This document shows, piece by piece, positions 18,746-31,231 of a DNA stretch of 32,818 bases. A model generated the notes under the pieces. The model was not told where the DNA came from. It worked only from the letters and a program-made list of their open reading frames with translations, and ran no database searches. The stretch comes from Burkholderiales bacterium (GTDB lineage Bacteria > Pseudomonadota > Gammaproteobacteria > Burkholderiales > Burkholderiaceae_C), in NCBI GenBank assembly GCA_026400155.1, contig JAPLPO010000018.1:1-32818 (forward strand), in the 5' to 3' direction. How positions within the stretch are numbered: the stretch's first letter is position 1; each line of letters opens with the position of its first letter. The translations under genes were made by a program, and so were the position numbers.

Positions 18746-18875
18746 TTCTTCATAATGGAGCGTTGAGCAGTTAGCCTATTGGGGGCTTCCTCATACTGGG
18801 GTACCAGAAATCGTCAGCCCCCAATAGGCTAACTACTCAACTTTCTAGTGCGGAAAACTTCTGACTACCAACAAC
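18746..18875 (+). repeat. Half copy (A) of the double-hairpin element: hairpin H1 plus truncated linker
   Basis: The left arm 18762-18787 and right arm 18816-18841 form a 26-bp stem with one mismatch around a 28-nt loop (18788-18815). The loop centres on CTGGGGTACCAG and ends AAATCGTC. It is followed by 34 bases resembling the 45-base linker of the full copies (TTCTGACTACCAAC), then the photolyase ATG. There is no second hairpin. Stem positions 11, 14, 15 and 19 differ from the other copies, and all four changes are matched on the opposite arm. A decayed half core (TTCTTCATAATGG, 18746-18758) precedes it, as at the other copies. It fills the gap between the divergent Mo-hydroxylase and photolyase genes. 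Confidence 0.9.
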
Positions 18876-20021
18876 ATGACTTTTTTTACCCCAACTCGCG
18901 AAGAAGCACTGGCAAGAATTGCCTCAGTTAAACCGGCAGAATATGCTCGTACTCGCAATGCACTGAACGGTGCAGTGACTCAGCTTTCACCCTACATCAC
19001 TCACGGCTTTGTGAATTTGCGTGAGGTGTTGGAGGGCGTGCGTTCTCAGCACACAGTGAATTCACAAGACAAATTTTTGTTTGAGCTGGGTTGGCGTGAG
19101 TACTACCGACATGTTTGGCAGCACCGAGGCGATGGCATTTTTGAATCGCTGCATGAAGGCGTGTTGCCAGACAGTGCCTATGCGGATCAAATTCCTGCGG
19201 ATATTCTCCGAGCTTGTACGGGTATTGCTGCTATCGATATGGCTGTAAAAACTTTGTATGGCACTGGTTATTTGCACAACCATGCCCGCATGTGGCTGGC
19301 CAGTTATATGGTGCATCTGCGAAAAGTTCATTGGCGTGTAGGGGCCGATTGGCTTTATGGCCATTTGTTGGATGGCGATTTGGCCAGCAATCATTTGAGT
19401 TGGCAATGGGTGGCTGGTACAGGGAGCAACAAACCCTATTTATTCAACGCAGAAAATGTAGCGCGTTTTGCGCCTGAAGCTTGGCACAGTGCGGGTACAC
19501 CGATTGATACAAGCTATGAGGACCTCGACCAGATTGCAAGGCAAAGCTTGTCTGTTACTGCTTCGGCGAGTTCGCCTAGCAATTTAGTTGAAGAGCCTGC
19601 ATTGATGTCTTCTCCGCCAACATCGCTGAATATTGAAACACCAAATTCAAATGTTGCTAAGGGTCGCGATGTGTGGCTGGTTCATCCTTGGAGTTTGGGA
19701 GATTTACCAGCAGATTTGCCAAAGGACACTTTGGTGATTGGTATTTATGTATCGGAGTTTCATCGCGATTGGCCTTGGGATGAAAGGCGGTGGTTGTTTG
19801 TTCAAAGCAGAATGGCCGAATTGGTCAGTGAGTGTTGGTATGGCGATCGCTTGTCGATTGAGTTGGCGTTGCAAGGTGCTAAGCGTTTAGGTGGAATGCT
19901 TGAAGCGCATATTGCGCCTTGGCTGCCATCTGCTAGGCAATACATTCCTTCGCCTGCGCTGTTTCCAAATGTTGAGCGTCGTTGCGATTCATTTTCTAAG
20001 TGGTGGCAGCTTGTTTCTTAG
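18876..20021 (+). CDS. Photolyase/cryptochrome-like FAD-binding protein with unusual domain order
   Basis: This 381-aa protein begins directly with the helical FAD-binding domain of the photolyase/cryptochrome superfamily. It shows YARTRNALNGAVTQLSPYIT near 24-43, FELGWREYYRHVW near 70-82, then TGYLHNHARMWLASYMVHLR, ADWLYGHLLDGDLASNHLSW and QWVAGTGSNKPY. The usual N-terminal alpha/beta antenna domain is missing. Instead, after a linker of about 50 Ser/Pro-rich residues, the C-terminal 110 residues (VWLVHPWSLGDLPADLP, VIGIYVSEFHRDWPWDERRW) look like a shortened alpha/beta domain, as if permuted. DNA repair or light sensing is therefore inference. No Shine-Dalgarno is visible; the ATG abuts the repeat A linker. 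Repeat copy B begins directly after the stop. Confidence 0.82.
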   Translation: MTFFTPTREEALARIASVKPAEYARTRNALNGAVTQLSPYITHGFVNLREVLEGVRSQHTVNSQDKFLFELGWREYYRHVWQHRGDGIFESLHEGVLPDSAYADQIPADILRACTGIAAIDMAVKTLYGTGYLHNHARMWLASYMVHLRKVHWRVGADWLYGHLLDGDLASNHLSWQWVAGTGSNKPYLFNAENVARFAPEAWHSAGTPIDTSYEDLDQIARQSLSVTASASSPSNLVEEPALMSSPPTSLNIETPNSNVAKGRDVWLVHPWSLGDLPADLPKDTLVIGIYVSEFHRDWPWDERRWLFVQSRMAELVSECWYGDRLSIELALQGAKRLGGMLEAHIAPWLPSARQYIPSPALFPNVERRCDSFSKWWQLVS

Positions 20022-20022
20022 A

Positions 20023-20273
20023 AGTCAGGCTATGGGAAGCTTTCTTGTGCTGGAGCGTTGAGCAGTCAGGGTATAAGGGGCTTCCTCATACTGGAGTACC
20101 AGAAATCGTCAGCCCCCTATACCCTGACTACTCAACTTTGGGCGCGTGTGAAGTTTCCAACGGCCAATACTACTGTTCGCAGCTGGGTGAGGGTGTGGTG
20201 GGTGGGTGACGATTTCTGGTACTCCAGTATGAGAAACCCACCCACCACACCCTCACCGAGCGAGCTCAGCAAA
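20023..20273 (+). repeat. Full copy (B) of the 205-bp double-hairpin element with decayed 5' duplication
   Basis: H1 has arms 20057-20082 and 20111-20136 around loop 20083-20110. The linker is 20137-20181. H2 has arms 20182-20207 and 20236-20261 around loop 20208-20235. H1 and H2 loops are reverse complements of each other, apart from a single base in this copy. H1 has two mismatches and H2 one. Bases 20023-20056 align without gaps to the H1 left arm plus half core at about 26 of 34 positions, so they look like an older duplicated fragment. A 12-base tail GAGCTCAGCAAA (20262-20273) is shared exactly with copies C and D. It fills most of the first half of the 423-base gene-free stretch after the photolyase. 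Confidence 0.92.
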
Positions 20274-20444
20274 CAAAGCACACTAAAGCCAAATATGCAA
20301 GCTGAGCTAACTCATCAATGCCCGATTCAAAGACAATTCAACTTCCAGCAGAAGGTATAAATACAGTCAGTAACTGTCTAAGCACAATCGCCTTCACCCT
20401 ACAGCATCCGCCAGAATGAACACACTTCACAGACACTGCACACC
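20274..20444. other. Gene-free leader region of the sugar-binding-protein gene
   Basis: This is the remainder of the 423-base intergenic stretch after repeat copy B. It presumably holds the promoter of the solute-binding-protein gene. A TATAAAT-like stretch (20356-20362) and a small inverted repeat ACAGT-N5-ACTGT (20363-20377) are visible, but no convincing -35 box. Nothing coding is supported here. Confidence 0.5.
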
Positions 20445-21722
20445 ATGATTTGGGCTTCAAAAATAACAAACTCACTTGCCATCGCTTGGGCCTTCCTCAT
20501 GGTTTCCATGTCATCACATGCAGCGGTGTTGACAGTGGCTTGCGGCCCCAGCGGCACCGACGTGAGTTATTGCTTTAAGTATGCCCAAGAATGGGCCAAG
20601 CAGACAGGCAACACCGTTCGCAATTTTTCGCCACCTTCCAGTGTTCCCGATAAATTAGCACTTTACCGACAATTGTTCGCCGCCAAATCGACAGACATCG
20701 ACGTATTGCAAATCGACCTGGTGTGGCCAGGATTACTCAAAGACCATTTGTTAGATCTTTCTCCTTTTACGCGGGGAGAAGAACGCAAGCATTTCCAAAC
20801 TCTGGTCGATGGCAATACCGTGAATGGCCGACTGGTGGCAATGCCCTGGTACACAGATGCGGGCGTGTTTTACTACCGCAAGGATTTGTTGACGCACTAC
20901 CAACAAGCCGTACCCAGCACCTGGAAAGAATTCAGCGACATCGCCAAACGCATACAAACAGCCGAACGGGCTCGGGGCAATCCTGACTTTCATGGCTTCA
21001 TGTTCCAGGGGAAAGCCGATGAAGGCCTCACATGTCATGCGCTTGAATGGATTGCTGGCAGCGGCGGCGGGCAAGTCTTGAGCGACTCAGGGGAGATCAC
21101 GGTTCGAAACAAAGCCGCTGCGGCGGCGCTTGACATGGCCGCCAGTTGGATAGGCCATATTTCACCCTTAGGAGTACTCAACCATGAACCAGAAGACTCC
21201 CGAGGCGTGTTTCAAAGTGGCAACGCCCTCTTCATGCGCAACTGGCCTTACGCATGGGCTTTGATGCAAAAAGATGACAGCCCCGTCAAGGACAAAGTAG
21301 GCATTGCACCGATGCCGGGCCTTCAAGCTGCAGGGGGTCGCTCAGCCGTGGGCGGCTGGCAATTGGGCGTCTCGCGTTACTCTAAACATCCTGAGCTGGC
21401 GGCTGATCTGGTGTTGTACATGACCAGTGCTGCGGTGCAACGTGAGCGTGCCATCGCGGGGGCATTCAACCCGACTCGACCCACGCTTTATGAAGACAAA
21501 GAAGTGATTGCAGCCAATCCACACATGCCCGCACTAAGCGCCATCATTGCCAAAGGAGTGATCCGGCCTTCTACCGTTACAGGGCTCAAATACCCCCAGG
21601 TGAGCCAAAGTGTTTGGTATGCCGCACACGATGTTTTGTCGGGACGCATGAATGGTGAGGAAGCTGTGACTCGACTGGAAAAACGCCTTGAACGCATACG
21701 CAGAAAAGCTTGGACTCACTAG
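20445..21722 (+). CDS. ABC sugar transporter extracellular solute-binding protein (family 1)
   Basis: This 425-aa periplasmic receptor is of the maltose/trehalose-type family-1 class. A signal peptide spans about residues 1-27 with a likely cut in SSHA-AVL. Family features include VDVLQIDLVWPGLL-like text (DIDVLQIDLVWPGLLKDH), GRLVAMPWYTDAGVFYYRKDLL, FMFQGKADEGLTCHALEWI, and GGRSAVGGWQLGVSRYSKHP, most like ThuE-type trehalose/maltose binders from memory. No permease or ATPase genes follow, so it is an orphan receptor or it serves a transporter elsewhere. Its TAG stop shares the palindrome CTAG with the stop of the convergent AraC gene. The neighbouring GH92 mannosidase suggests a mannose-containing oligosaccharide or glycoside ligand; that is inference. 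Confidence 0.88.
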   Translation: MIWASKITNSLAIAWAFLMVSMSSHAAVLTVACGPSGTDVSYCFKYAQEWAKQTGNTVRNFSPPSSVPDKLALYRQLFAAKSTDIDVLQIDLVWPGLLKDHLLDLSPFTRGEERKHFQTLVDGNTVNGRLVAMPWYTDAGVFYYRKDLLTHYQQAVPSTWKEFSDIAKRIQTAERARGNPDFHGFMFQGKADEGLTCHALEWIAGSGGGQVLSDSGEITVRNKAAAAALDMAASWIGHISPLGVLNHEPEDSRGVFQSGNALFMRNWPYAWALMQKDDSPVKDKVGIAPMPGLQAAGGRSAVGGWQLGVSRYSKHPELAADLVLYMTSAAVQRERAIAGAFNPTRPTLYEDKEVIAANPHMPALSAIIAKGVIRPSTVTGLKYPQVSQSVWYAAHDVLSGRMNGEEAVTRLEKRLERIRRKAWTH

Positions 21723-22570
21723 CTTGCCTTTCGGTATTGTCTAGGTGTTTGACCATGGCGCAATAAAAATTGTCGGTTGAAGTGGGACAGCGTGGTAAAG
21801 CCACAATCCTCAGCAACTGTGGCAATGGGCTTATCTGTCTTTCGCAACTGTATGGCGGCCTCTGTGCAGCGCAGATCGTTCACATACTCAGTGAATGTTT
21901 TACCAAGGCTGCGCCTGAAAAATCGACTGAATGCAGCAGGGCTGACATGAACTTTGGCGGCAGCATCTTCAATACTCAGGTTTTGCGAAAGGTGCTCGTG
22001 AATCCAACGCACAACTCTGTCAATTCGACGATCGGTTTGATCACTGTCGCGACCATTTGCCGAAAGTCCACCTGCTGATGACAAGGTCTGCAGTGCCTGT
22101 GGATGCTCAATCAATAAGCCCAAAATTTCAATTAGAAACGCCAGTCGTTTTAGCCCTTGCTCAGCCTGCATGCGCACCATCAAGCCCTGAACTTGATGGC
22201 GGAGAGGCTCATGAATGACCAAGCCCATAGCGGCTTTGCGCATCAATTCGCCGACAGCACTCCATTCTGGAACAGCAACAGACTGAAGCAAGTCAACCGG
22301 AAACTGAACCACACTGAATTCATGCACTTTGCCCAGATCCCCAGGATGACTGATCCAGACGTGGGGAATGTCAGGCCCCACCAACACCAAGTCACCGGCT
22401 TCAAAGGGTGCAGCACTGCCTCCCACAAAGCGCAAACCTGCGCCCTGCGCCACCCAAGTTAACTCCGCTTGCGAATGCCGATGGCGCTCGCCATTGAGAC
22501 AATCGAGCTTCATGTGCATGAATCGAAAAGACTCATGCGGATGCACAACTCGCTCTTTAAATACCTTCAT
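21719..22570 (-). CDS. AraC-family transcriptional regulator with N-terminal cupin
   Basis: This 283-aa regulator has an N-terminal sugar-sensing cupin half with HRHSQAELTWVAQGAGLRFV near residues 30-49 and GDLVLVGPDIPHVW near 62-75. The C-terminal double helix-turn-helix occupies residues 185-283, with IEDAAAKVHVSPAAFSRFFR, GKTFTEYVNDLR and VAEDCGFTTLSHFNRQFLLR, ending TPRQYRKAS. It is transcribed away from the phyH-adh-esterase-GH92 genes, with a 124-base divergent gap, and tail-to-tail with the solute-binding-protein gene. This layout makes it the likely ligand-responsive activator of both. The probable inducer is the sugar or glycoside handled by this locus. Confidence 0.9.
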   Translation of the reverse strand: MKVFKERVVHPHESFRFMHMKLDCLNGERHRHSQAELTWVAQGAGLRFVGGSAAPFEAGDLVLVGPDIPHVWISHPGDLGKVHEFSVVQFPVDLLQSVAVPEWSAVGELMRKAAMGLVIHEPLRHQVQGLMVRMQAEQGLKRLAFLIEILGLLIEHPQALQTLSSAGGLSANGRDSDQTDRRIDRVVRWIHEHLSQNLSIEDAAAKVHVSPAAFSRFFRRSLGKTFTEYVNDLRCTEAAIQLRKTDKPIATVAEDCGFTTLSHFNRQFLLRHGQTPRQYRKAS

Positions 22571-22585
22571 GCTTGATTATTTATT

Positions 22586-22612
22586 CAATTTGCGTCAATT
22601 TAGAGTTAATTT
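22586..22612. promoter_or_regulatory. Helically phased (C/T)AATTT direct repeats, candidate AraC-family operator
   Basis: CAATTT at 22586-22591, CAATTT at 22596-22601 and TAATTT at 22607-22612 are spaced 10 and 11 bases apart, one DNA turn each. They lie in the divergent gap between the AraC gene and phyH. Phased direct half-sites suit AraC-family dimers, and phased A/T tracts also bend DNA. The assignment is tentative. Confidence 0.3.
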
Positions 22613-22694
22613 TGGTCGATGGCGGCTCACAACACAAGTAGGAATTTCACGATACTTTTCACCATACAAGCCAACTAACCCAGGCATTCATTCT

Positions 22695-23495
22695 ATGAAC
22701 CTCAACTCTGCATATCACCTGACACAGGCACAGATCGATCAGTTTCGGCACGATGGCTACATCAAACTCAAAGATGTCTTGGATGCACAGACCCTTGCTT
22801 ATTACGGCTCAGAGATCACTCGGCTGACCATTGAGCTCAACACACAACACAAGCCCCTTGCCGAGCGCAGTACTTATGACAAGGCATTTTTGCAAGTGAT
22901 GAACTTGTGGGAGCACTCACCCAGGGTCAATGAATTTGTGAACGGCAAACGTTTGGCGCGCATAGCGGCAGAGTTGCTAGAAATCGAGGGCGTTCGCTTG
23001 TACCACGATCAATCACTTTACAAAGAGCCGGGCGGCGGCATCACGCCTGCGCACGCAGATCAGTATTACTGGCCCTTAAGCAGCGATCGCACCATCACTG
23101 CATGGATCCCCCTTCAGGCTGTGCCCAATGACATGGGGCCCCTCGGTTTTTATGCGCGAAGTCAGTCCGTAGAGTTTGGACGCGAATTGGGTATTTCGGA
23201 TGAAAGCGAAGACAAAATCACTGCCAACATGGCACGTCATGGTTTGAGTTTTGTGTCCACCCCTTTTGAACTGGGCGAAGTGAGTTTTCATTTAGGCTGG
23301 ACATTTCACAAAGCAGGGGGCAATGTATCGACACAGCCACGCTCGGTCATGACCATCATTTACATGGACAGCCAAATGAAACTGCAACCCGCCCTTAGCC
23401 CTATTCAAGCCAACGATGCCGCCCAATGGTGTCCCGGTATTCTTCCAGGCAACTCAGCGAACAGTGCAAAGAATCCCCTTCTTTACTCACGCTAA
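22695..23495 (+). CDS. Phytanoyl-CoA dioxygenase (PhyH) family Fe(II)/2-oxoglutarate oxygenase
   Basis: This 266-aa protein starts at ATG 22695 (MNLNSAYHLTQAQIDQFRHD); a much longer upstream frame overlaps the AraC gene and is not protein-like. It has a double-stranded beta-helix oxygenase fold. Iron ligands are visible as H120-x-D122 in ITPAHADQYYWPL and the distal H205 in HLGWTFHKAGGN. The 2-oxoglutarate-binding Arg lies in TQPRSVMTIIYMD. Members hydroxylate diverse small molecules using O2 and 2-oxoglutarate, so the substrate is open; a glycoside aglycone or a quaternary amine are both possible. It is the first gene of a plus-strand set with adh, esterase and GH92, 45 bases before adh. No strong ribosome site is visible. 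Confidence 0.88.
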   Translation: MNLNSAYHLTQAQIDQFRHDGYIKLKDVLDAQTLAYYGSEITRLTIELNTQHKPLAERSTYDKAFLQVMNLWEHSPRVNEFVNGKRLARIAAELLEIEGVRLYHDQSLYKEPGGGITPAHADQYYWPLSSDRTITAWIPLQAVPNDMGPLGFYARSQSVEFGRELGISDESEDKITANMARHGLSFVSTPFELGEVSFHLGWTFHKAGGNVSTQPRSVMTIIYMDSQMKLQPALSPIQANDAAQWCPGILPGNSANSAKNPLLYSR

Positions 23496-23540
23496 ATTGA
23501 CCTATTGATACCCCAGCGCTTCACACCTCAACTTCACTCC

Positions 23541-24659
23541 ATGATCAATTCAATCTCTTCCCTGGCTGCCATCAGCGATGGCCATGGTGGGTTTGTGATC
23601 GAAAACACCGAAGTGCGAGATCCCGTTGGTTCAGAAGTCAGGGTTCGCATGGCAGCAGCGGGGGTTTGTCATACCGATCATCAATCGTTGGCATGGGAAG
23701 GGCCTCTGGTTTTAGGGCATGAAGGGGCAGGCTGGATCGAGTCGATTGGACCCCAGGTCAGTGGCTTCAACATTGGACAACCCGTACTGCTTAACTGGGC
23801 TATTCCCTGTGGGCACTGCTCGCCTTGTCAGCATACGCAGGGCCACTTGTGCGATCGCACTCAAGGTCTATCGAAAGAATCACCCTCTGTTGATTCACCT
23901 CACACTGTTTGGAACAAGCAAGACATTCGGCGCTCGTTTAATTTAGGCACTTTTTCTGAGTACACCTTGGTACGTGCTGAAGCCCTCTCACCATTGCCGT
24001 CTCCATTGTCAATGACAGAGGCATGCATCTTGGGTTGCGCGGTCATGACAGGCGTCGGCTCCGTCATCAACAGTGCCCATGTTCAAGCAGGTGACAGTGT
24101 GGTGGTACTGGGGTGCGGCGGCGTGGGCCTTTCCGTCGTCCAAGGCGCACGCATTGCGGGCGCCAAAACCATCATCGCGTTAGACAAACGAGCTGAGAGT
24201 CTAGAACGTGCAAGCCACATGGGTGCGACACACACGTGGCAGATTGCGGATGACGATCACAATTTTGAAAATACAGTGAAGCATGTGCGCACCCTGACAA
24301 ATGAGCGGGGTGCAGATCATGCCTTTGAAGCTACCGGGCGACACCATTTGGCATTTGCGCCTTTGAAGTTCATCCGACATGGTGGCAACGCATTGCAATT
24401 GTCTGGCGCGCATGGTGAAGTGAGTGCATCGATGCTCGACTTCTGGTGGGACAAACGGTATTTGACACCCTTGTATGGCGGCTGCCATCCCTCGCGAGAT
24501 TTTCCAAAATTGTTGCGTTGGATTGAAGAAGGACAGCTGGATGTGGCCAGCATTGTCACGCGTCACTACTCACCGCCTCAATTGCAAGACGCATTGAACG
24601 ACATGCTGGCTGGCAACAACATCAAAGGCGTTATCGTCTTCGACAAGGACGCACCATGA
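23541..24659 (+). CDS. Zinc-dependent alcohol dehydrogenase (class III-like MDR family)
   Basis: This 372-aa medium-chain dehydrogenase starts at ATG 23541 (MINSISSLAAIS). Catalytic zinc ligands are C43 (GVCHTDH) and H60-E61 (GHEGAG), with the third Cys in ILGCAVMTG. The structural zinc cluster is complete at C90, C93, C96 and C104 (CGHCSPCQHTQGHLC). The Rossmann stretch VVVLGCGGVGLSVVQGARIAGAK binds NAD, and an acidic residue after it (ALDKR) favours NAD over NADP. The class III look suggests a hydroxymethyl- or formaldehyde-adduct-type substrate, but this is weak. Its TGA overlaps the esterase ATG (ATGA), so the two are translationally coupled and may act on consecutive intermediates. Confidence 0.9.
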   Translation: MINSISSLAAISDGHGGFVIENTEVRDPVGSEVRVRMAAAGVCHTDHQSLAWEGPLVLGHEGAGWIESIGPQVSGFNIGQPVLLNWAIPCGHCSPCQHTQGHLCDRTQGLSKESPSVDSPHTVWNKQDIRRSFNLGTFSEYTLVRAEALSPLPSPLSMTEACILGCAVMTGVGSVINSAHVQAGDSVVVLGCGGVGLSVVQGARIAGAKTIIALDKRAESLERASHMGATHTWQIADDDHNFENTVKHVRTLTNERGADHAFEATGRHHLAFAPLKFIRHGGNALQLSGAHGEVSASMLDFWWDKRYLTPLYGGCHPSRDFPKLLRWIEEGQLDVASIVTRHYSPPQLQDALNDMLAGNNIKGVIVFDKDAP

Positions 24660-25480
24660 AGTTTAGAACCCTTGAGAAATCAGACCCCACCTTGATGCCA
24701 AGCGGTTTGCAATGTGTCACCGTGAAATCATCCGCGTTAAAGCAGCGGGCAGATGTCACGATCTTTCTTCCAGCTGAGTTTGGCCATTTACGCCATCTGC
24801 CCATCGTGACGCTGCTGCACGGTGTTTATGGCTCACACTGGTCTTGGGCGTACCAAGGTGGCGCCCACCTGCTTGCAGCACAACTCATGCAACAAGGCCA
24901 AATCAGCCCCATGGTCTTGGTCATGCCCAGTGATGGCTTGTGGGGTGATGGGTCGGGTTATGTGGCGCATACACACACTCATTTGCAGCAAAATTTTGAA
25001 AAATGGATTGTGGAAGAAGTGCCGGAAATTGCCGCACAAACATGTCCTTCTTGCAGCCAGCAATCCAAGCACTTCATTGCGGGTTTGAGCATGGGCGGAT
25101 TTGCTGCGCTGCGATTGGCAGGCATTTATCCCGATCGCTATCAAGCTGCATCGGGACACTCCGCCTTAACGGAAATTTCGCAACTTGACGCACTGATAGA
25201 GGAGTCGCGTGAAGAATGGTCAAGGGATGCCACCAGCAGTTCGGTATTGGAAGCGTTGAAATCAGCACAAGGAAAATTGCCTGCCTTGCGATTTGATTGT
25301 GGACAGTCTGATATTTTTCTCAAGGATAACCAGCAACTTCACCAATCACTGCTTGAATTGGGCATTGCGCATGAGTACGAAGAATTTGAAGGGGGGCACG
25401 AATGGCCATACTGGCGAACTCACCTGGCTGACTCATTGAGATTTTTTTCACGCACGCTGAAACAAAGCACCTTGAAGTAA
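24656..25480 (+). CDS. Esterase-D/S-formylglutathione-hydrolase-like alpha/beta hydrolase
   Basis: This 274-aa hydrolase has the putative-esterase (esterase D) fold. The oxyanion segment LLHGVYGSHWSWAYQG lies near 57-72. The nucleophile elbow GLSMGG gives S145, the acidic residue is D219 in DCGQSD, and the base is H248 in GGHEWPYW. All three triad members are thus visible. It has no signal peptide. The start overlaps the alcohol dehydrogenase stop by four bases. Coupling to a class III-like dehydrogenase recalls the formaldehyde-detoxification pair FrmA-FrmB, yet the context with GH92 and PhyH also fits deacylation of a sugar ester. Specificity is therefore unresolved. Confidence 0.88.
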   Translation: MKFRTLEKSDPTLMPSGLQCVTVKSSALKQRADVTIFLPAEFGHLRHLPIVTLLHGVYGSHWSWAYQGGAHLLAAQLMQQGQISPMVLVMPSDGLWGDGSGYVAHTHTHLQQNFEKWIVEEVPEIAAQTCPSCSQQSKHFIAGLSMGGFAALRLAGIYPDRYQAASGHSALTEISQLDALIEESREEWSRDATSSSVLEALKSAQGKLPALRFDCGQSDIFLKDNQQLHQSLLELGIAHEYEEFEGGHEWPYWRTHLADSLRFFSRTLKQSTLK

Positions 25481-25503
25481 CGCCTTCAGAAAAATTACGT
25501 CAC

Positions 25504-27756
25504 ATGAAACCATTTTCAAATTTACGCCGTCGTTTGATCATGGGCGTACCCTTCGCTGCCAGCGTGCCGTGGTCAACGCTAGCGGCAAAGTCAAGCCCAG
25601 AGCGATTGACAAGCAAGCAATGGACAACTTACGTCAACCCCTTTGTAGGCACTGATGGCACAGGCCACACTTTTCCCGGCGCAGTCATGCCCTTTGGCAT
25701 GGTGGCACCTAGCCCCGACAACGCCGACAGAGGGTGGGACTACACCAGCGGCTATCAATTTAAAAACCAGCAAATTTTGGGGTTCTCCAACACGCACATC
25801 AGTGGCGCAGGTATTCCAGATCTGGGCGATGTTCTTTTAATGCCAAGACAAGGACAAACTTGGCAAGCCAATACCAACACTTTTGCAGCGCGCAAAGCCA
25901 AGCGAAGCGAAGTGGCAGAGCCCGGTTATTACAGTGTTCGCCTGCCGCAACATCAGGTGCAGGTTGAGCTCACAGCCACCCAGCGTGTGGCCTTGCACCG
26001 CTATACCTTTGAGCGTCCTGGTCGCGTTCAGGTGATGGTTGATTTGCAACACGGTTTGCACTTCAATGAGGCCCATCGCGTTAAGCAAGCGCAATCCAAA
26101 CTGAATCCTGAAAAAAGTGAAATTGCAGGAACAGTTCATGCTGTTGCTTGGGTAGAGCGGCAAGCATCGTTTGTCGTTCAATTTGATCGCCCTGCGTTGC
26201 ATGCCGAACTACTGCCCATGCCAGTGGGGCATGTCGCTCAACGCTATCTGCTCACTTTTGAAGTCGATGTCACACGCCAATTAGAGGCTCGCATTGCGCT
26301 TTCTACCGTAGACGAAGCTGGTGCTCAACACAACTTAGAAGAAGCCAAGCAACTGAAATTTGATGAGGCAAGGCAACTGGCACAGCAAGCTTGGAACGGC
26401 TTGTTAGGGCGCATTGAAATTGAAGCGCCTCTAGCTCAAAAAAGAATTTTTTATACAGCGCTTTATCATGCTTTGATTCACCCTAGCAACATTGCAGACC
26501 GCGATGGACGTGTGCGCGGCCCGCAAGGTAAAGTGATTCAAGCACAAAGCGGACATTACTACAGCACGCTGTCTTTGTGGGATACCTTTCGAGCAGTGCA
26601 TCCTTTGTTAACCCTTATCGTGCCCGAGCGCGTCGACGGCATGGTACAAACTCTTCTTGCGCACCATTCGCAACAAGGCTTTTTACCACTTTGGACGGCT
26701 TGGGGTCGTGAAACTTATTGCATGATTGGCAACCCCGCTTTGCCCGTCATTGCTGATGCCATTGCGAAAGACTTTAAAGGTTTTGATCATGCAACCGCTT
26801 TGCAGGCAATGGTCGAAACATCTAGCAAACCAAGACCGCAAGCACCCGAGTGGGCGCAGCGCAGCTGGAATTTACTCGACACCTACGGCTATTTGCCGTT
26901 CGACTTAGAACCCAACGGTGAAGCTGTGTCTAAAACACTTGAGCATGGCTACGGCGACGATGCTGTCGCAAGAGTTGCGCGCTTGCTTGGACACAATGAA
27001 ACAGCACAACACTTTGCTCAAAGGGCCAAAGGCTATCAAAAATTGTGGGATGCACAAACTGGGGTGATGCGGGGTCGAGACAGCGAAGGTCGTTGGCGGG
27101 AACCATTCAACCCCGACACACCCACTTCACCCTTGAACAATCCTGGCGACTACACAGAAGCCAACGCTTGGCAATACACTCTCACGCCTGCATTGCACGA
27201 TCCCATTGGGCTACGCAAAATGATGGGCGGATCCCTTGGTATGGAACGATGGCTTGATCATTATTTTCAACGACGAAGCCAGGTTAACAAACATTTAGGC
27301 CAAGAAGCATTGATTGGCCAAAACGCTCATGGCAATGAACCGAGTCACCATGCTGCTTGGTTGTATGCTTTCACCGCATCCCCTTGGAAGGGCCATGCTT
27401 TGGTTGATCGCATTGCGCGTAGCTTTTATCGAGACAGCCCCAATGGATTGATCGGCAATGATGACTGCGGTCAGATGAGTGCTTGGTTGGTCTTTGCTAC
27501 TTTGGGCATTTATCCGGTTAACCCTGGACATGGCGAGTACATGACTGGCTTGCCTCTGGTCAAAAAGGCGCAACTTCATTTGCAAACTGGCACGCTCACT
27601 GTTCGCGCTAACTTGCCATCATCTTTTGCACGGGGTCGAGTTCACCGAGTAGATTTGAAGTTGGATGGAATTGCCTTTGATTCGCAAAAGTCAATTGCGC
27701 ATCAGGCTTTGCTAAAAGTTCGGACGCTTGAATTTTTAGTTGCGGGTCAAGCGTAG
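25504..27756 (+). CDS. GH92-family exo-alpha-mannosidase
   Basis: This 750-aa glycoside hydrolase of family 92 comprises calcium-dependent inverting alpha-mannosidases. The N-terminus carries a twin-arginine-like signal (NLRRRLIMGVPFAASVP) and so is probably exported. Diagnostic blocks are YVNPFVGTDGTGHTFPGAVM and PFGMVAPSPD near residues 42-76, GFSNTHISGAG, SLWDTFRAVHPLL, DYTEANAWQYT with E552 as probable acid, GNEPSHHAAWLYAF near 610-623, and GNDDCGQMSAW near 651-661 bearing the probable base Asp. GH92 enzymes trim alpha-1,2/1,3-mannose, typically from N-glycans or yeast mannan. They are abundant in Bacteroidetes and less common in betaproteobacteria. It is last in the set, 23 bases after the esterase. 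Repeat copy C follows within 30 bases. Confidence 0.92.
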   Translation: MKPFSNLRRRLIMGVPFAASVPWSTLAAKSSPERLTSKQWTTYVNPFVGTDGTGHTFPGAVMPFGMVAPSPDNADRGWDYTSGYQFKNQQILGFSNTHISGAGIPDLGDVLLMPRQGQTWQANTNTFAARKAKRSEVAEPGYYSVRLPQHQVQVELTATQRVALHRYTFERPGRVQVMVDLQHGLHFNEAHRVKQAQSKLNPEKSEIAGTVHAVAWVERQASFVVQFDRPALHAELLPMPVGHVAQRYLLTFEVDVTRQLEARIALSTVDEAGAQHNLEEAKQLKFDEARQLAQQAWNGLLGRIEIEAPLAQKRIFYTALYHALIHPSNIADRDGRVRGPQGKVIQAQSGHYYSTLSLWDTFRAVHPLLTLIVPERVDGMVQTLLAHHSQQGFLPLWTAWGRETYCMIGNPALPVIADAIAKDFKGFDHATALQAMVETSSKPRPQAPEWAQRSWNLLDTYGYLPFDLEPNGEAVSKTLEHGYGDDAVARVARLLGHNETAQHFAQRAKGYQKLWDAQTGVMRGRDSEGRWREPFNPDTPTSPLNNPGDYTEANAWQYTLTPALHDPIGLRKMMGGSLGMERWLDHYFQRRSQVNKHLGQEALIGQNAHGNEPSHHAAWLYAFTASPWKGHALVDRIARSFYRDSPNGLIGNDDCGQMSAWLVFATLGIYPVNPGHGEYMTGLPLVKKAQLHLQTGTLTVRANLPSSFARGRVHRVDLKLDGIAFDSQKSIAHQALLKVRTLEFLVAGQA

Positions 27757-27781
27757 AGGTCTATTTTCTGCTGATTGGGGC

Positions 27782-28039
27782 GTTGAGTCGCCAGGGTATA
27801 GGGGGCTTCCTCATACTGGGGCGTTGAGCAGTCAGGGTATAGGGGGCTTCCTCATACTGGGGTACCAGAAATCGTCAGCCCCCTATACCCTGACTACTCA
27901 ACTTTGGGTGTGCGGATAATTTCTGACTGCCAACACTGCTGTTCGCAGCTGGGTGAGGGTGTGGTGGGTGGGTTACGATTTCTGGTACGCCAGTATGAGG
28001 AACCCACCCACCACACCCTCGCCCAGCGAGCTCAGCAAA
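27782..28039 (+). repeat. Full copy (C) of the 205-bp double-hairpin element with clear tandem 5' duplication
   Basis: H1 has arms 27823-27848 and 27877-27902 around loop 27849-27876. The linker is 27903-27947. H2 has arms 27948-27973 and 28002-28027 around loop 27974-28001. The spacing equals that of copies B and D to the base. Immediately upstream, 27782-27822 repeats the H1 left arm and half core (TTCCTCATACTGGGGC) almost unchanged, giving a 41-base tandem duplication that lacks its partner arm. The tail GAGCTCAGCAAA is at 28028-28039. This element accounts for most of the 341-base gene-free stretch between the GH92 and unknown-protein genes. Confidence 0.93.
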
Positions 28040-28097
28040 GCAAACCTAACAACCTCAGCCATAATCCAATCCAACCCCCACCAGTTAAATCCCAAAG

Positions 28098-28613
28098 ATG
28101 AAAAAGAAAGTAGCCCTACCGCTATTGGCCATCGTCTTAGTAGGCGTCATTGGCTCACACATCAGCTTCAAAGCTGCTGACCACAGCTATTTGATGGTGG
28201 TTGACGGCATCGAAATTGATGTTCTTGGAAAAATTCAAAACCAATGGCTTTCGCACGCACAAAATTGCAAAGGTGTGACTGAACCCAAAGAAAGCGAAGC
28301 AAACTTTCAAGCCATTCATAAGGCCATTCAAGCCTACAGTCCACCGCAATCTCAATCTGCGCAAATTGCAGGCATTTGGACGCTTGGAACATGGAGCTTG
28401 GCAGAGGTAGAGTTTGAGACACTTCTGCCTGCTGTTGTCACACTTCAAATGAACAACAGTGATCCGCAAATAGTGCCCCGAGGCATTTGGAGTGGCCACA
28501 CCAAACCTTGGATGGCTGCGCCCTTGATTCGAACTTATCTCAAAACACAAGTTCCCGAAATTCCCAGCCAGTTGATTCATTGTTTTGATTCTCGCTCAAA
28601 ATCTTTCAACTGA
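28098..28613 (+). CDS. Small exported or membrane-anchored protein of unknown function
   Basis: I do not recognise this 171-aa protein. An N-terminal KKK followed by a hydrophobic stretch (residues 5-22, VALPLLAIVLVGVIGSHI) is a signal anchor or an uncleaved signal peptide. The rest is soluble and hydrophilic, with two Cys (one in AQNCKGVTEPKE, one near the end in LIHCFDSRSK) that could form a disulfide in the periplasm. A central segment IAGIWTLGTWSLAEVEFETL looks like beta strands. It begins 70 bases after the H2 hairpin of repeat C and is followed by an Ig-like lipoprotein gene on the same strand. No function is proposed. Confidence 0.7.
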   Translation: MKKKVALPLLAIVLVGVIGSHISFKAADHSYLMVVDGIEIDVLGKIQNQWLSHAQNCKGVTEPKESEANFQAIHKAIQAYSPPQSQSAQIAGIWTLGTWSLAEVEFETLLPAVVTLQMNNSDPQIVPRGIWSGHTKPWMAAPLIRTYLKTQVPEIPSQLIHCFDSRSKSFN

Positions 28614-28733
28614 ATCAACCAGACCTAGATCAACCATTGACTAGCCAATAGGCTTTTGTGCGCCATGGCAATTCACGGAATTGTCACAATTGATCAACAC
28701 CATCAAATTAGTTTTTCATTGAAAAGTGATGCT

Positions 28734-29801
28734 ATGAATTCGATGGGTGTACTTGTCAGACGATTGTTTCTTTTAGGGGGCCTAGGCTTGCTCTCATTGA
28801 TCGTTGCCTGTGGTGGATCAGGCGTAGAAGCGGGGGACGCAACAAGTTCGTCAAATCCGCCTGGAACATCCAATGCACCTAGCACTGGCGTAACCACCCT
28901 GAAGCCGCCCAAACTGTCATTTTCAGACACCGGATTGAGTGTGAGCGATGGCGTCACGCGAAATGGATTGTGGGCCGTAGAGAGTGATTATTCTTGGGAA
29001 TTCTCTTTGGACCAAGGTGTCACCTGGACCATAGGCTCCGGCAGTTCCTTTGAAGTGAAAGGTGATGGCCCCAAAATGATTTGGGTTCGTGCGCGCGACA
29101 ACGCTGGCAATAAATCTGAGATCGTTGTGGTGACATGTGTTCTAGACACCATGGCACCCGCGCCCGTGTCTGTTACGGCAAGCGTTGATGGTTACACGCG
29201 CTCACTTGAGGTGGCGGGACTTGAGGCCAACGCGAAATGGGAGTATTCGCTGGACAACAAGATGAATTGGAATCCGGGTAGTGGCTCGGGTTTGGGTACT
29301 TTAGGCAATGGGCTGAGCATGATTTGGCTTCGCCAAGTTGATGTGGCTGGCAACGCGTCTGAGGCTCAAGTCTTTGATCTTTCAGCGGCAGGCTCTGACA
29401 TGAGCCATGAGGCCTCTACCAATCCGCTGCAACCCAGCACCATGGCCAAAGGCTTGCTTACCATGCTCATTCACGGCGTGGTTGTTCGAGGCGATGCCGA
29501 CTATGTCCGGTGGGACATTCCTAAGAATCACCGGCTGAAGTCTGTCAAATTGGTTCGCTATGTATCAGAGGATGCCATCGCTTTTTATGCAATTCAATCA
29601 AGTAACGTGTTTGATGCAGGCGTAGACGTTAGCCGAATGCTTGTGTATGGTCACATGGGACCTGCAGACTTGAATCGCAATGTCGTTGCCAACATTCCTG
29701 CAGAGAAACTCGGCGAAGGCCCGATGACCATTTGGTTTCAACAGACCGGTGCTTTGCCCACCGAGTACGCTATTGAGATTAGTTTGCAAGCCGTGAATTG
29801 A
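28734..29801 (+). CDS. Lipoprotein with two Ig-like repeats, unknown function
   Basis: The protein is 355 aa from ATG 28734; an in-frame upstream start adds a non-signal-like segment. The signal peptide ends in the lipobox SLIVAC, with C26 as the lipidated residue, followed by a Gly/Ser/Thr/Pro-rich linker. Two tandem units share the pattern W-E-Y/F-S-L-D-x3-x-W-x-x-GSGS then G-x-x-MIW-x-R-x-x-D-x-AGN-x-SE, at about residues 78-125 and 155-205. This matches bacterial Ig-like repeats common in surface proteins. The last 120 residues form a separate unrecognised domain beginning LLTMLIHGVVVRGDADYVRW. Its 3' end overlaps the convergent MBL-fold hydrolase gene by 23 bases. A surface or periplasmic role is inferred only. 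Confidence 0.8.
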   Translation: MNSMGVLVRRLFLLGGLGLLSLIVACGGSGVEAGDATSSSNPPGTSNAPSTGVTTLKPPKLSFSDTGLSVSDGVTRNGLWAVESDYSWEFSLDQGVTWTIGSGSSFEVKGDGPKMIWVRARDNAGNKSEIVVVTCVLDTMAPAPVSVTASVDGYTRSLEVAGLEANAKWEYSLDNKMNWNPGSGSGLGTLGNGLSMIWLRQVDVAGNASEAQVFDLSAAGSDMSHEASTNPLQPSTMAKGLLTMLIHGVVVRGDADYVRWDIPKNHRLKSVKLVRYVSEDAIAFYAIQSSNVFDAGVDVSRMLVYGHMGPADLNRNVVANIPAEKLGEGPMTIWFQQTGALPTEYAIEISLQAVN

Positions 29802-30906
29802 TTTTTTCCAACAACCAACTCTCGCCATGCTTCAGCACAAAGAAGTTCAAAGGTACAGCGGATTCTTTTTTGGCAATCTCTAAGTCCTTCGGCGCTTGGT
29901 CCAAAGGCTCATCACTCATGCCGTCAAAAGTGCCCCAATGAATACCGAGGGCCGCTTTGGCTTTGACATCTCTCATCGCTTGAAGGGCCTCATTTGGATT
30001 GACATGGGAGTCTTTCATAAACCATCGCGGTTCATATGCACCAATTGCAATGGCCGCCAGGTCAAAGCCACCCATTCGCTCTCCGATGTCTTTGGTATCA
30101 CGCGAATAAGCCAAGTCGCCAGAAAACCAGAATCGAAAATCGGGATGCATGAAGGCCCAACTTCCCCAGAGGGTTTCGTAGCGATCGCCAATTGACCGTG
30201 CACTCCAGTGTTGCACTGCCAGAAAATGCAAATCAAGGTTTTTTGTTTTGCCCTTGATGCTGGCGTGTTGATCCCAATCTAGTGCAATGACGTTGCGCGT
30301 GGGGCCTTCCAATACGGTACCTCTGATTTCTTTCTTGAACCAATGCTGGATGCCAAGCGGTACAAAGAAATGAATGCCTGAATGACGATTCATGAGGGCC
30401 TGAAGGGTTTCTTGATCCAAATGATCCCAGTGGTTGTGTGAGATCACCACAGCATCGATTTTTGGAAGTTTGTCGAACGGAATGCCAGGCACCTGATGTC
30501 GTTTGGGGCCTGCAAAACTGAATGGTGAAGCACGTTGACCCCAGTGCGGATCTGTCAACAGGTTTAAGCCATCGATTTGAACAAGCAAGGTTGAATGGCC
30601 AACCCATGTCACTCTGGGCTGCGTGCTGTCGCTGTTGATCAATTCAAGGTTTGGCTCGATACCCATGATGGGCTTGGCTGGCGGTTTGGGCAAGCCATCT
30701 CGCAGGCGTTCCCATTGCCAACGCAGCAAGCCTGGTTTGTCGGACCGTTCTGAGTAGCGGTTAGCAAATCCATCGGGGCGATGGTGTGGTTTGTTAGCGT
30801 CGTAGTCGGGGTTGGCACGAGGCGCCATGCTGACGCAGGCTGCTAGCAGGGCGCAAGCCAATGCGGTGGTTGCAACCATTGCGAAAGCGTTGCGGAATTT
30901 CAACAT
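29779..30906 (-). CDS. Metallo-beta-lactamase-fold lipoprotein hydrolase (NAPE-PLD/RomA-like)
   Basis: This 375-aa exported metallohydrolase has an N-terminal signal ending in lipobox LLAAC, so C24 is lipidated and the enzyme sits in the envelope. A linker (residues 30-95) leads to VTWVGHSTLLVQIDGLNLLTDP, the family entry, and the metal motif SHNHWDHLD with H157, H159, D161 and H162. Further ligands come from FWFSGDLAYSRD and GIHWGTFDG. The insert HWGQRASPFSFAGPKRHQVPG is typical of the N-acyl-phosphatidylethanolamine phospholipase-D-like branch, also annotated RomA or UlaG-like. A phosphodiester or lactone substrate is likely but unproven. Its start lies 78 bases from repeat copy D. Confidence 0.88.
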   Translation of the reverse strand: MLKFRNAFAMVATTALACALLAACVSMAPRANPDYDANKPHHRPDGFANRYSERSDKPGLLRWQWERLRDGLPKPPAKPIMGIEPNLELINSDSTQPRVTWVGHSTLLVQIDGLNLLTDPHWGQRASPFSFAGPKRHQVPGIPFDKLPKIDAVVISHNHWDHLDQETLQALMNRHSGIHFFVPLGIQHWFKKEIRGTVLEGPTRNVIALDWDQHASIKGKTKNLDLHFLAVQHWSARSIGDRYETLWGSWAFMHPDFRFWFSGDLAYSRDTKDIGERMGGFDLAAIAIGAYEPRWFMKDSHVNPNEALQAMRDVKAKAALGIHWGTFDGMSDEPLDQAPKDLEIAKKESAVPLNFFVLKHGESWLLEKINSRLAN

Positions 30907-30949
30907 GGGTTAATTCTAATGAAGAAGTGTTTGATTCAGAGCGTTTTGC

Positions 30950-31200
30950 AGAAAGGCTGAGGGCAGGTTTCTCATACTGGAACGTTGAGTAGTCAGGGTA
31001 TAGGGGGCTTCCTCATACTGGAGTACCAGAAATCGTCAGCCCCCTATACCCTGACTACTCAACTTTGGGCGCGCGAAAAATTTCTGACTGCCAACACTGC
31101 TGTTCGCAGCTGGGTGAGGGTGTGGTGGGTGGGTGACGATTTCTGGTACTCCAGTATGAGGAACCCACCCACCACACCCTCACCCAGCGAGCTCAGCAAA
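30950..31200 (+). repeat. Full copy (D) of the 205-bp double-hairpin element, perfect stems
   Basis: H1 has arms 30984-31009 and 31038-31063 around loop 31010-31037. The linker is 31064-31108. H2 has arms 31109-31134 and 31163-31188 around loop 31135-31162. Both 26-bp stems are perfect, and the two loops are exact reverse complements over 28 bases. This is therefore the least decayed copy. The upstream 30950-30983 is a decayed fragment of arm plus half core (TTTCTCATACTGG kept). The tail GAGCTCAGCAAA is at 31189-31200. It fills most of the 325-base gene-free gap between the MBL-fold gene and the crotonase gene, and marks the point where GC content rises. Confidence 0.94.
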
Positions 31201-31231
31201 AAAACTCCAAGAGTCGTTTAAAACTTCAACC

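Follow-up and report, generated by a model that had tools for sequence, protein, structure and literature searches.

A large family of intergenic hairpin repeats with free stems and a conserved inner loop in related beta-proteobacteria

Double hairpins of the window and the genes between them

The window analyzed here, a stretch of 32,818 nucleotides from a Burkholderiales bacterium (assembly GCA_026400155.1, contig JAPLPO010000018.1; contig C110 of a 233-contig draft genome that is 81% complete), contains three double hairpins of 205 bp and one half copy, and these repeats belong to a large family of hairpins, often paired, in related beta-proteobacteria. A first-pass annotation had described them by a common plan of 26-bp stems, 28-nt loops and a 45-nt linker, then GAGCTCAGCAAA, and we find this plan at 20057-20261, 27823-28027 and 30984-31188, with the half copy at 18762-18841, all in one orientation and all between genes, as described. 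Complementarity is 92-100% across the window stems listed, five of 26 bp and one of 29 bp. Since the loop of hairpin 2 is the reverse complement of the 28-nt loop of hairpin 1, each 205-bp copy is an inverted pair; we refer to the loop of hairpin 1 as M, to its complement as M' and to the 205-bp copy as E.

All copies are given here on the + strand. The half copy E1 (18762..18841) has hairpin 1 only, with its M site at 18792-18813 (+), and its second half is absent. E2 consists of hairpin 1 (20057..20136; M site 20087-20108 on +, folding strand M' on -), the 45-nt linker (20137..20181) and hairpin 2 (20182..20261; M site 20210-20231 on -, folding strand M' on +). The hairpins of E3 lie at 27823..27902 (M site 27853-27874, +) and 27948..28027 (M site 27976-27997, -), and those of E4 at 30984..31063 (M site 31014-31035, +) and 31109..31188 (M site 31137-31158, -); homology between copies at E4 spans 30977-31204. 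A covariance model was built from 40 diverse hairpins, including one of the window's own; with it, the folding strand of the seven window hairpins scores 80.6-89.4 bits and the opposite strand 24-38 bits. An intrinsic-terminator scan of the window, restricted to loops of 3-8, listed 18 sites (14.8 in shuffles), which include no complete element; one (18833-18813) falls within the half copy. Across the draft genome the 22-nt loop core is found 26 times (none for the backwards control), and the family also has copies in related genomes, outside the window.

In Limnohabitans the 205-bp copies delimit exchangeable gene modules. The order in the window is F07, half E, F05, E, F42-F47, E, F08 F19 F11, E and an enoyl-CoA hydratase, where F05 (18876..20021, + strand) is a DNA-photolyase FAD-domain protein between E1 and E2, the module between E2 and E3 (20445..27756) comprises F42-F47, including a solute-binding protein, an AraC-type regulator and a GH92 protein, and that between E3 and E4 (28098..30906) comprises F08, F19 and F11 (metallo-beta-lactamase superfamily). 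The same F42-F47 set fills one contig of genome G032, with E sequence at both ends. The order is F07, E, F05, E, F54 F53, E, F08 F19 F11, E, F52 in G019 and simply F07, E, F52 in G010; a tRNA-Ser gene adjoins E in both, and another lies beside an E of G027. One relative retains just the final part of E at the orthologous position. Among gene ends beside E, 10 of 13 have more than one neighbor; for the other ends of these loci the figure is 20 of 116. The p-value (2e-5) is only a guide, given the relatedness of the genomes and the choice of loci by their E copies. Homologous recombination between the 205-bp copies is probably the main route by which the modules are exchanged.

At seven joints, drawn from 21 left half-sites listed and representing two lineages with unrelated stems, a complete hairpin is joined at its base to a left half-hairpin that ends in the loop tip at CTGG (CTGA in one case). 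In the window such half-hairpins are found at 27780-27819 (+; last letters ...CATACTGG, joined to E3 at its base) and, in diverged form, at 30940-30980 (+; last letters CTCATACTGG, joined to E4 at its base), and elsewhere at L101, L130, L307 and L308; they may be explained by a short stretch of CTGG-like identity at the base. Contigs also start or stop inside or beside hairpins (C37, C101 and C178 of G000, C133 of G032), which suggests that draft assemblies break at the repeats.

Conserved inner loop, free stems and the folded strand

The first-pass annotation had placed its emphasis on the 205-bp geometry. While true of the window copies, it is only one Limnohabitans version, and the unit is the single hairpin, in most cases arranged in inverted pairs. 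Our set comprises 301 distinct hairpins from fetched loci with up to five mismatches to the 22-nt core, of which 239 form class A, including all window copies, and 62 form class B, which lie inside GGGGTCAGA...TCTGACCCC ends. Identity is 96% or higher in twenty of the 22 core columns of these hairpins, which were fetched by that same motif, and two more columns that lie outside every fetch pattern are CC in 279 of the 301. The stems are mostly 21-32 bp long and their sequences are diverse, with 255 distinct left arms among the 295 hairpins with a clear stem, and the median stem score is 20 compared with 4 when the right arm is borrowed from another copy. In 26 model matches, selected mostly because they fell outside the first motif pattern, ATGAGG is kept in all 26 and CGATTT in 25, yet the tip differs and still pairs (e.g., CGG/CCG, GTGG/CCAC, and CTG/CAG); thus the inner loop, CGATTT opposite YATGAGG, is the most conserved part of the hairpin. 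Two more distant genomes also fit the inner-loop pattern.

As judged from sequence, the inner loop on M' can form C-G, G.A, A.G, U.U and U-A under the tip, and a tandem G.A geometry is probable. Directly beneath it, among 215 hairpins, GA faces GA in 101, GC faces GC in 37, AC faces GG in 20 and AC faces GT in 16. A subfamily in which the tip CTGCTCGCAG (CTGCTTGCAG in one) replaces CTGG-UACN-CCAG is seen at L463, L469, L471 and L472, and several copies of it lie within a few kb in G255.

The stems vary but stay complementary, and the covariation is strong. In 40 diverse class A hairpins, taken from 90 with unlike stems out of 210, 97.0% of the cells pair on the M' strand (63.7 in shuffles), with a covariation score of 0.853 (0.182 when shuffled) and two-sided changes in 349 cells (94.1 in shuffles); the number of pairs altered on both sides, 23 of 28, is little above the shuffled value of 20.1. 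On the M strand, 91.4% of the cells pair and the score is 0.719. Complementarity in cis between the two loops of a pair is a weak explanation for the conservation of the loop, as the two loops disagree at the variable position 8 in 33 pairs and at position 3 in 17 pairs, out of 87.

The irregularities of the stems are not equivalent on the two strands. In the M orientation, class A stems contain 346 A.C, 50 G.T and 139 others (87 of these T.C), and class B stems 33 A.C, 2 G.T and 11 others. The same irregularities read on M' are mainly G.U and G.A, which identifies M' as the strand that folds, and of the two strands M' also folds more stably in 203 of 214 cases with RNA parameters and 182 of 214 with DNA parameters. 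Relative to codirectional neighboring genes, the bias is the same for the 85 hairpins with M sense (121:11) and the 65 with M antisense (104:13). As it is independent of the direction of transcription, the folding strand is not set by transcription, which favors single-stranded DNA as the folded molecule, with RNA compatible as well. Single class A hairpins between codirectional genes have M sense in 25 cases and M' sense in 16 (14 and 8, respectively, where partners were sought by the model), and selection on the operon mRNA is not supported, since the bias ignores gene direction and the singles show no preference for M'.

Pairing, genomic placement and distribution

Ninety-nine adjacent pairs are separated by no more than 300 nt, and 87 of these have M followed by M', with six and four direct and two opposite; likewise, all 39 two-hit clusters tallied with the model are M then M'. 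The loop cores of inverted pairs are 81-270 nt apart, and singles also occur. Palindromes of the GTAGCGCGCTAC type are found in the spacer between paired hairpins in loci titled Polaromonas (L136, L172, L183, L205, L214) and Rhodoferax (L189), and a different repeat, GGACGCGAAGG...CGCGAAGGACGCGAAAG, is present in several copies per locus in Polaromonas-titled L160 and L172.

Using gene positions from our own gene caller, 126 of 144 class A clusters lie between two genes, which are codirectional in 95, convergent in 18 and divergent in 13; in five clusters the overlap with a called gene exceeds 60 nt, and the remaining clusters have no called gene on one side. The corresponding background is 136 codirectional, 19 convergent and 87 divergent of 242 gaps, and class A clusters are scarcer in divergent gaps (13 of 126 versus 87 of 242, p 7e-8). 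In codirectional gaps their median distance to the stop codon is 41 nt. For class B, 58 of 64 clusters could be placed and 33 of these are in convergent gaps.

Two sites recur. Hairpins lie between the BoxB and BoxA genes (both NCBIfam equivalogs), and boxA is present in 77 of the 90 genomes of the genus. Of 30 boxA loci, 12 have M sites (up to seven mismatches), 12 do not and six, at contig ends, allow no call. In two of the empty loci, stop and start codons are separated by 27 nt, versus 309 nt in L087; one locus retains the flanks of a lost first hairpin, and another has a partly deleted second hairpin. At the ExaC|DUF779 site, the neighbors of the hairpin were established by family search for L105 and L134, where the ExaC model is the best NCBIfam match at both but above its cut-off only in L134. 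DUF779 adjoins a hairpin by coordinates in G202, G225, G226 and G255, making six genera in total, and G434 and G312 resemble this site by gene layout only. DUF779 is encoded in 67 of 200 sampled genomes, and 30 of its loci fetched from that sample (none from G202, G225, G226 or G255) contain no M site.

The loop core (up to two mismatches) is found in 73 of 90 genomes of the genus, with no match for the backwards control in any of them, and in 30 of 399 genomes (15 of 141 genera) of the taxonomic family. The covariance model extends this to 76 of the 399 genomes and 42 of the 141 genera at E <= 0.001, or 34 genera at E <= 1e-9, where E-values are rough, at most 12 candidates were scored per genome, and the weakest matches may be other hairpins, since even the wrong strand of true copies scores 24-38 bits. 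In an order-wide sample of 399 genomes, five are positive, all within the same taxonomic family, with no match outside it. At least 118 stretches with the loop core were found in named genome contigs, and the 80 listed are from Limnohabitans, Rhodoferax, Polaromonas and other or unclassified beta-proteobacteria, plus one record under the title Singulisphaera, probably a mislabelling. A search of plasmids, phages and viral contigs for the motif gave no match.

The ends of class B connect part of the family to Y1_Tnp genes, which we take to be RAYT genes. In the genus these are mostly flanked by TTAATTGGGGTCAGATCCCAATTAA-like palindromes (L255-L282), and palindromes of the class B type with the same outer ends and no M loop are present at L151, L162 and L207. 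The GGGGTCAGA 9-mer is present in 27 of the 30 Y1_Tnp loci fetched from the genus and in 13 of 21 from elsewhere; among the hairpins, only class B has ends like the palindrome beside a Y1 gene, as in REPINs. None of the 51 fetched Y1_Tnp loci, which cover up to about 1.5 kb per side, holds an M site and, with class A lacking its ends, the Y1 transposase was rejected as the cognate enzyme of class A. Given the 239 hairpins without Y1-type ends and the outer element that occurs without M, a Y1 transposase may carry some copies but does not define the family.

Interpretation and comparison with known repeats

We give about even weight, against all alternatives together, to the view that this is an extragenic repeat similar to repetitive extragenic palindromes (REP) and bacterial interspersed mosaic elements (BIME), retained for a folded hairpin that is specific to one strand, and that recombination between its copies rearranges genes. 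Recognition would be reversed compared to REP/BIME, such that the long stem is free provided that pairing holds, and what is conserved is the inner loop below a variable paired tip, CGATTT opposite YATGAGG, presumably read on one strand, M', folded as single-stranded DNA. We propose a trans-acting protein that reads the folded inner loop because this loop is kept even where the model finds only one or two copies per genome. Recombination between the 205-bp copies would exchange the modules in Limnohabitans, and intercistronic hairpins may also affect mRNA ends. Several observations weigh against this proposal. The G.U bias could stem in part from strand-specific mutation, motif-based fetching partly accounts for the high conservation of the entire 28-nt loop, and placement behind stop codons is also expected of an RNA element. 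No reader protein was found, and Y1_Tnp is common but its 51 fetched loci are without M. For the mobility suggested in the first-pass annotation the signs are indirect at most: no target-site duplication was found, and two unoccupied box gaps have no clear homology to the flanks of the element; what is seen are occupied and unoccupied orthologous gaps, hairpin loss and the joining of different genes via 205-bp copies.

The hairpins might instead be structured RNA elements, in which M' acts in transcripts (in 3' end protection, intercistronic processing or as a small RNA) and the pair serves both directions. The tolerance of G.U and tandem G.A on M', the location of hairpins just after stop codons and the intra-operon sites BoxB|BoxA and ExaC|DUF779 would all suit such a role, as would, if this family and the Betaproteobacterial repeat element (BRE) are the same, the BRE-linked 80-nt transcript bprJ1 (PMC3110155). 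We regard an RNA element as rather unlikely, however, as singles have no M'-sense preference in either tally, one hairpin of every pair is antisense with the same bias, and no Rfam family reaches its gathering score in the window, 46 below-threshold matches being mostly to microRNA models. Two further explanations are appreciably less probable. The family could be mobile cargo of a Y1 transposase of the genus (RAYT, REPIN-like), as the GGGGTCAGA or TCTGACCCC ends of 62 of the 301 hairpins and the presence of that sequence in most Y1_Tnp loci of the genus would suggest, but the other 239, including all window copies, lack such ends, Y1_Tnp is found in 85 of the 90 genomes of the genus irrespective of M, and the same outer element occurs without M. 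Equally improbable are integron-like cassette recombination sites, with an undescribed recombinase acting on the folded strand. They would account for the E copies being co-oriented within each fetched locus, for the same gene end being joined via E to different partners, for the contrast between G010, with F07, E, F52, and G019, with three modules between four E copies, and for the half hairpins fused at the loop-tip CTGG at seven joints in two lineages. Yet recombination between 205-bp repeats accounts for the same arrangements, intra-operon pairs elsewhere lack such modules, and there is no integrase among the scanned genes, though most hotspot genes were outside that scan. It would be a long shot, too, that an undescribed recombinase of folded single-stranded DNA recognizes the hairpin tip and exchanges strands there, and that the 205-bp copies represent an integrase-free cassette system in Limnohabitans.

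A repeat family that conserves structure and a short inner loop rather than stem sequence is present in 34 to 42 of 141 sampled genera, and intergenic repeats act as joints between gene modules in freshwater bacteria, the source of the window being a lake bacterium. The strand bias, by identifying the folded strand, also provides a testable target, with the M' versus the M hairpin as bait for the reader.

REP/BIME, as described in the portion of the literature considered here, carry a terminal GTAG/CGTC tag, and their stems measure 5-13 bp and their loops 2-20 (PMC3733652). The present family resembles them in being extragenic, palindromic and multi-copy, with inverted dimers between genes and a strand-specific hairpin, but its stems are mostly 21-32 bp and free in sequence, as shown by the diversity of left arms given above, and it is the inner loop that is conserved. 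No fetched Y1 transposase gene is flanked by the repeat, and GTAG, CGTC or their complements occur within 10 nt of either foot in only 2-4 of 231 class A hairpins each, except for GACG at the 3' foot (13). The lack of a common tag at the foot and of an Rfam match at gathering score in the window agrees with the earlier impression that the copies match no named repeat, although BRE may prove to be one, and a text search of the literature for the motif letters returned no match on bacterial repeats, judged by title. The nearest published candidate, matched by description only, is BRE, reported in 2011 as 75-91 bp at full length in Bordetella, GC-rich and mostly intergenic, present also in Polaromonas and Rhodoferax, and suspected of mobility (PMC3110155). 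The likeness, again by description, extends to size, GC content, hosts and intergenic placement, but BRE is described as partly tandem and sequence-conserved, and the section describing it speaks of tandem arrays but of no inverted repeat or hairpin (PMC3110155). A search for other 45-140-bp repeats in the named loci fetched for M sites revealed no high-copy competitor, which makes identity with BRE a live possibility, although we would sooner bet against it than for it. The Y1_Tnp palindromes (TTAATTGGGGTCAGATCCCAATTAA) form the outer ends of class B hairpins but are of another sequence, short and missing from class A copies. Finally, the attC sites of integrons act as a folded single strand whose structure is conserved over sequence, with gene modules between direct copies, and the hairpins described here, for which folding as a single strand is proposed, resemble them in these features but differ in having a conserved inner loop rather than conserved ends.

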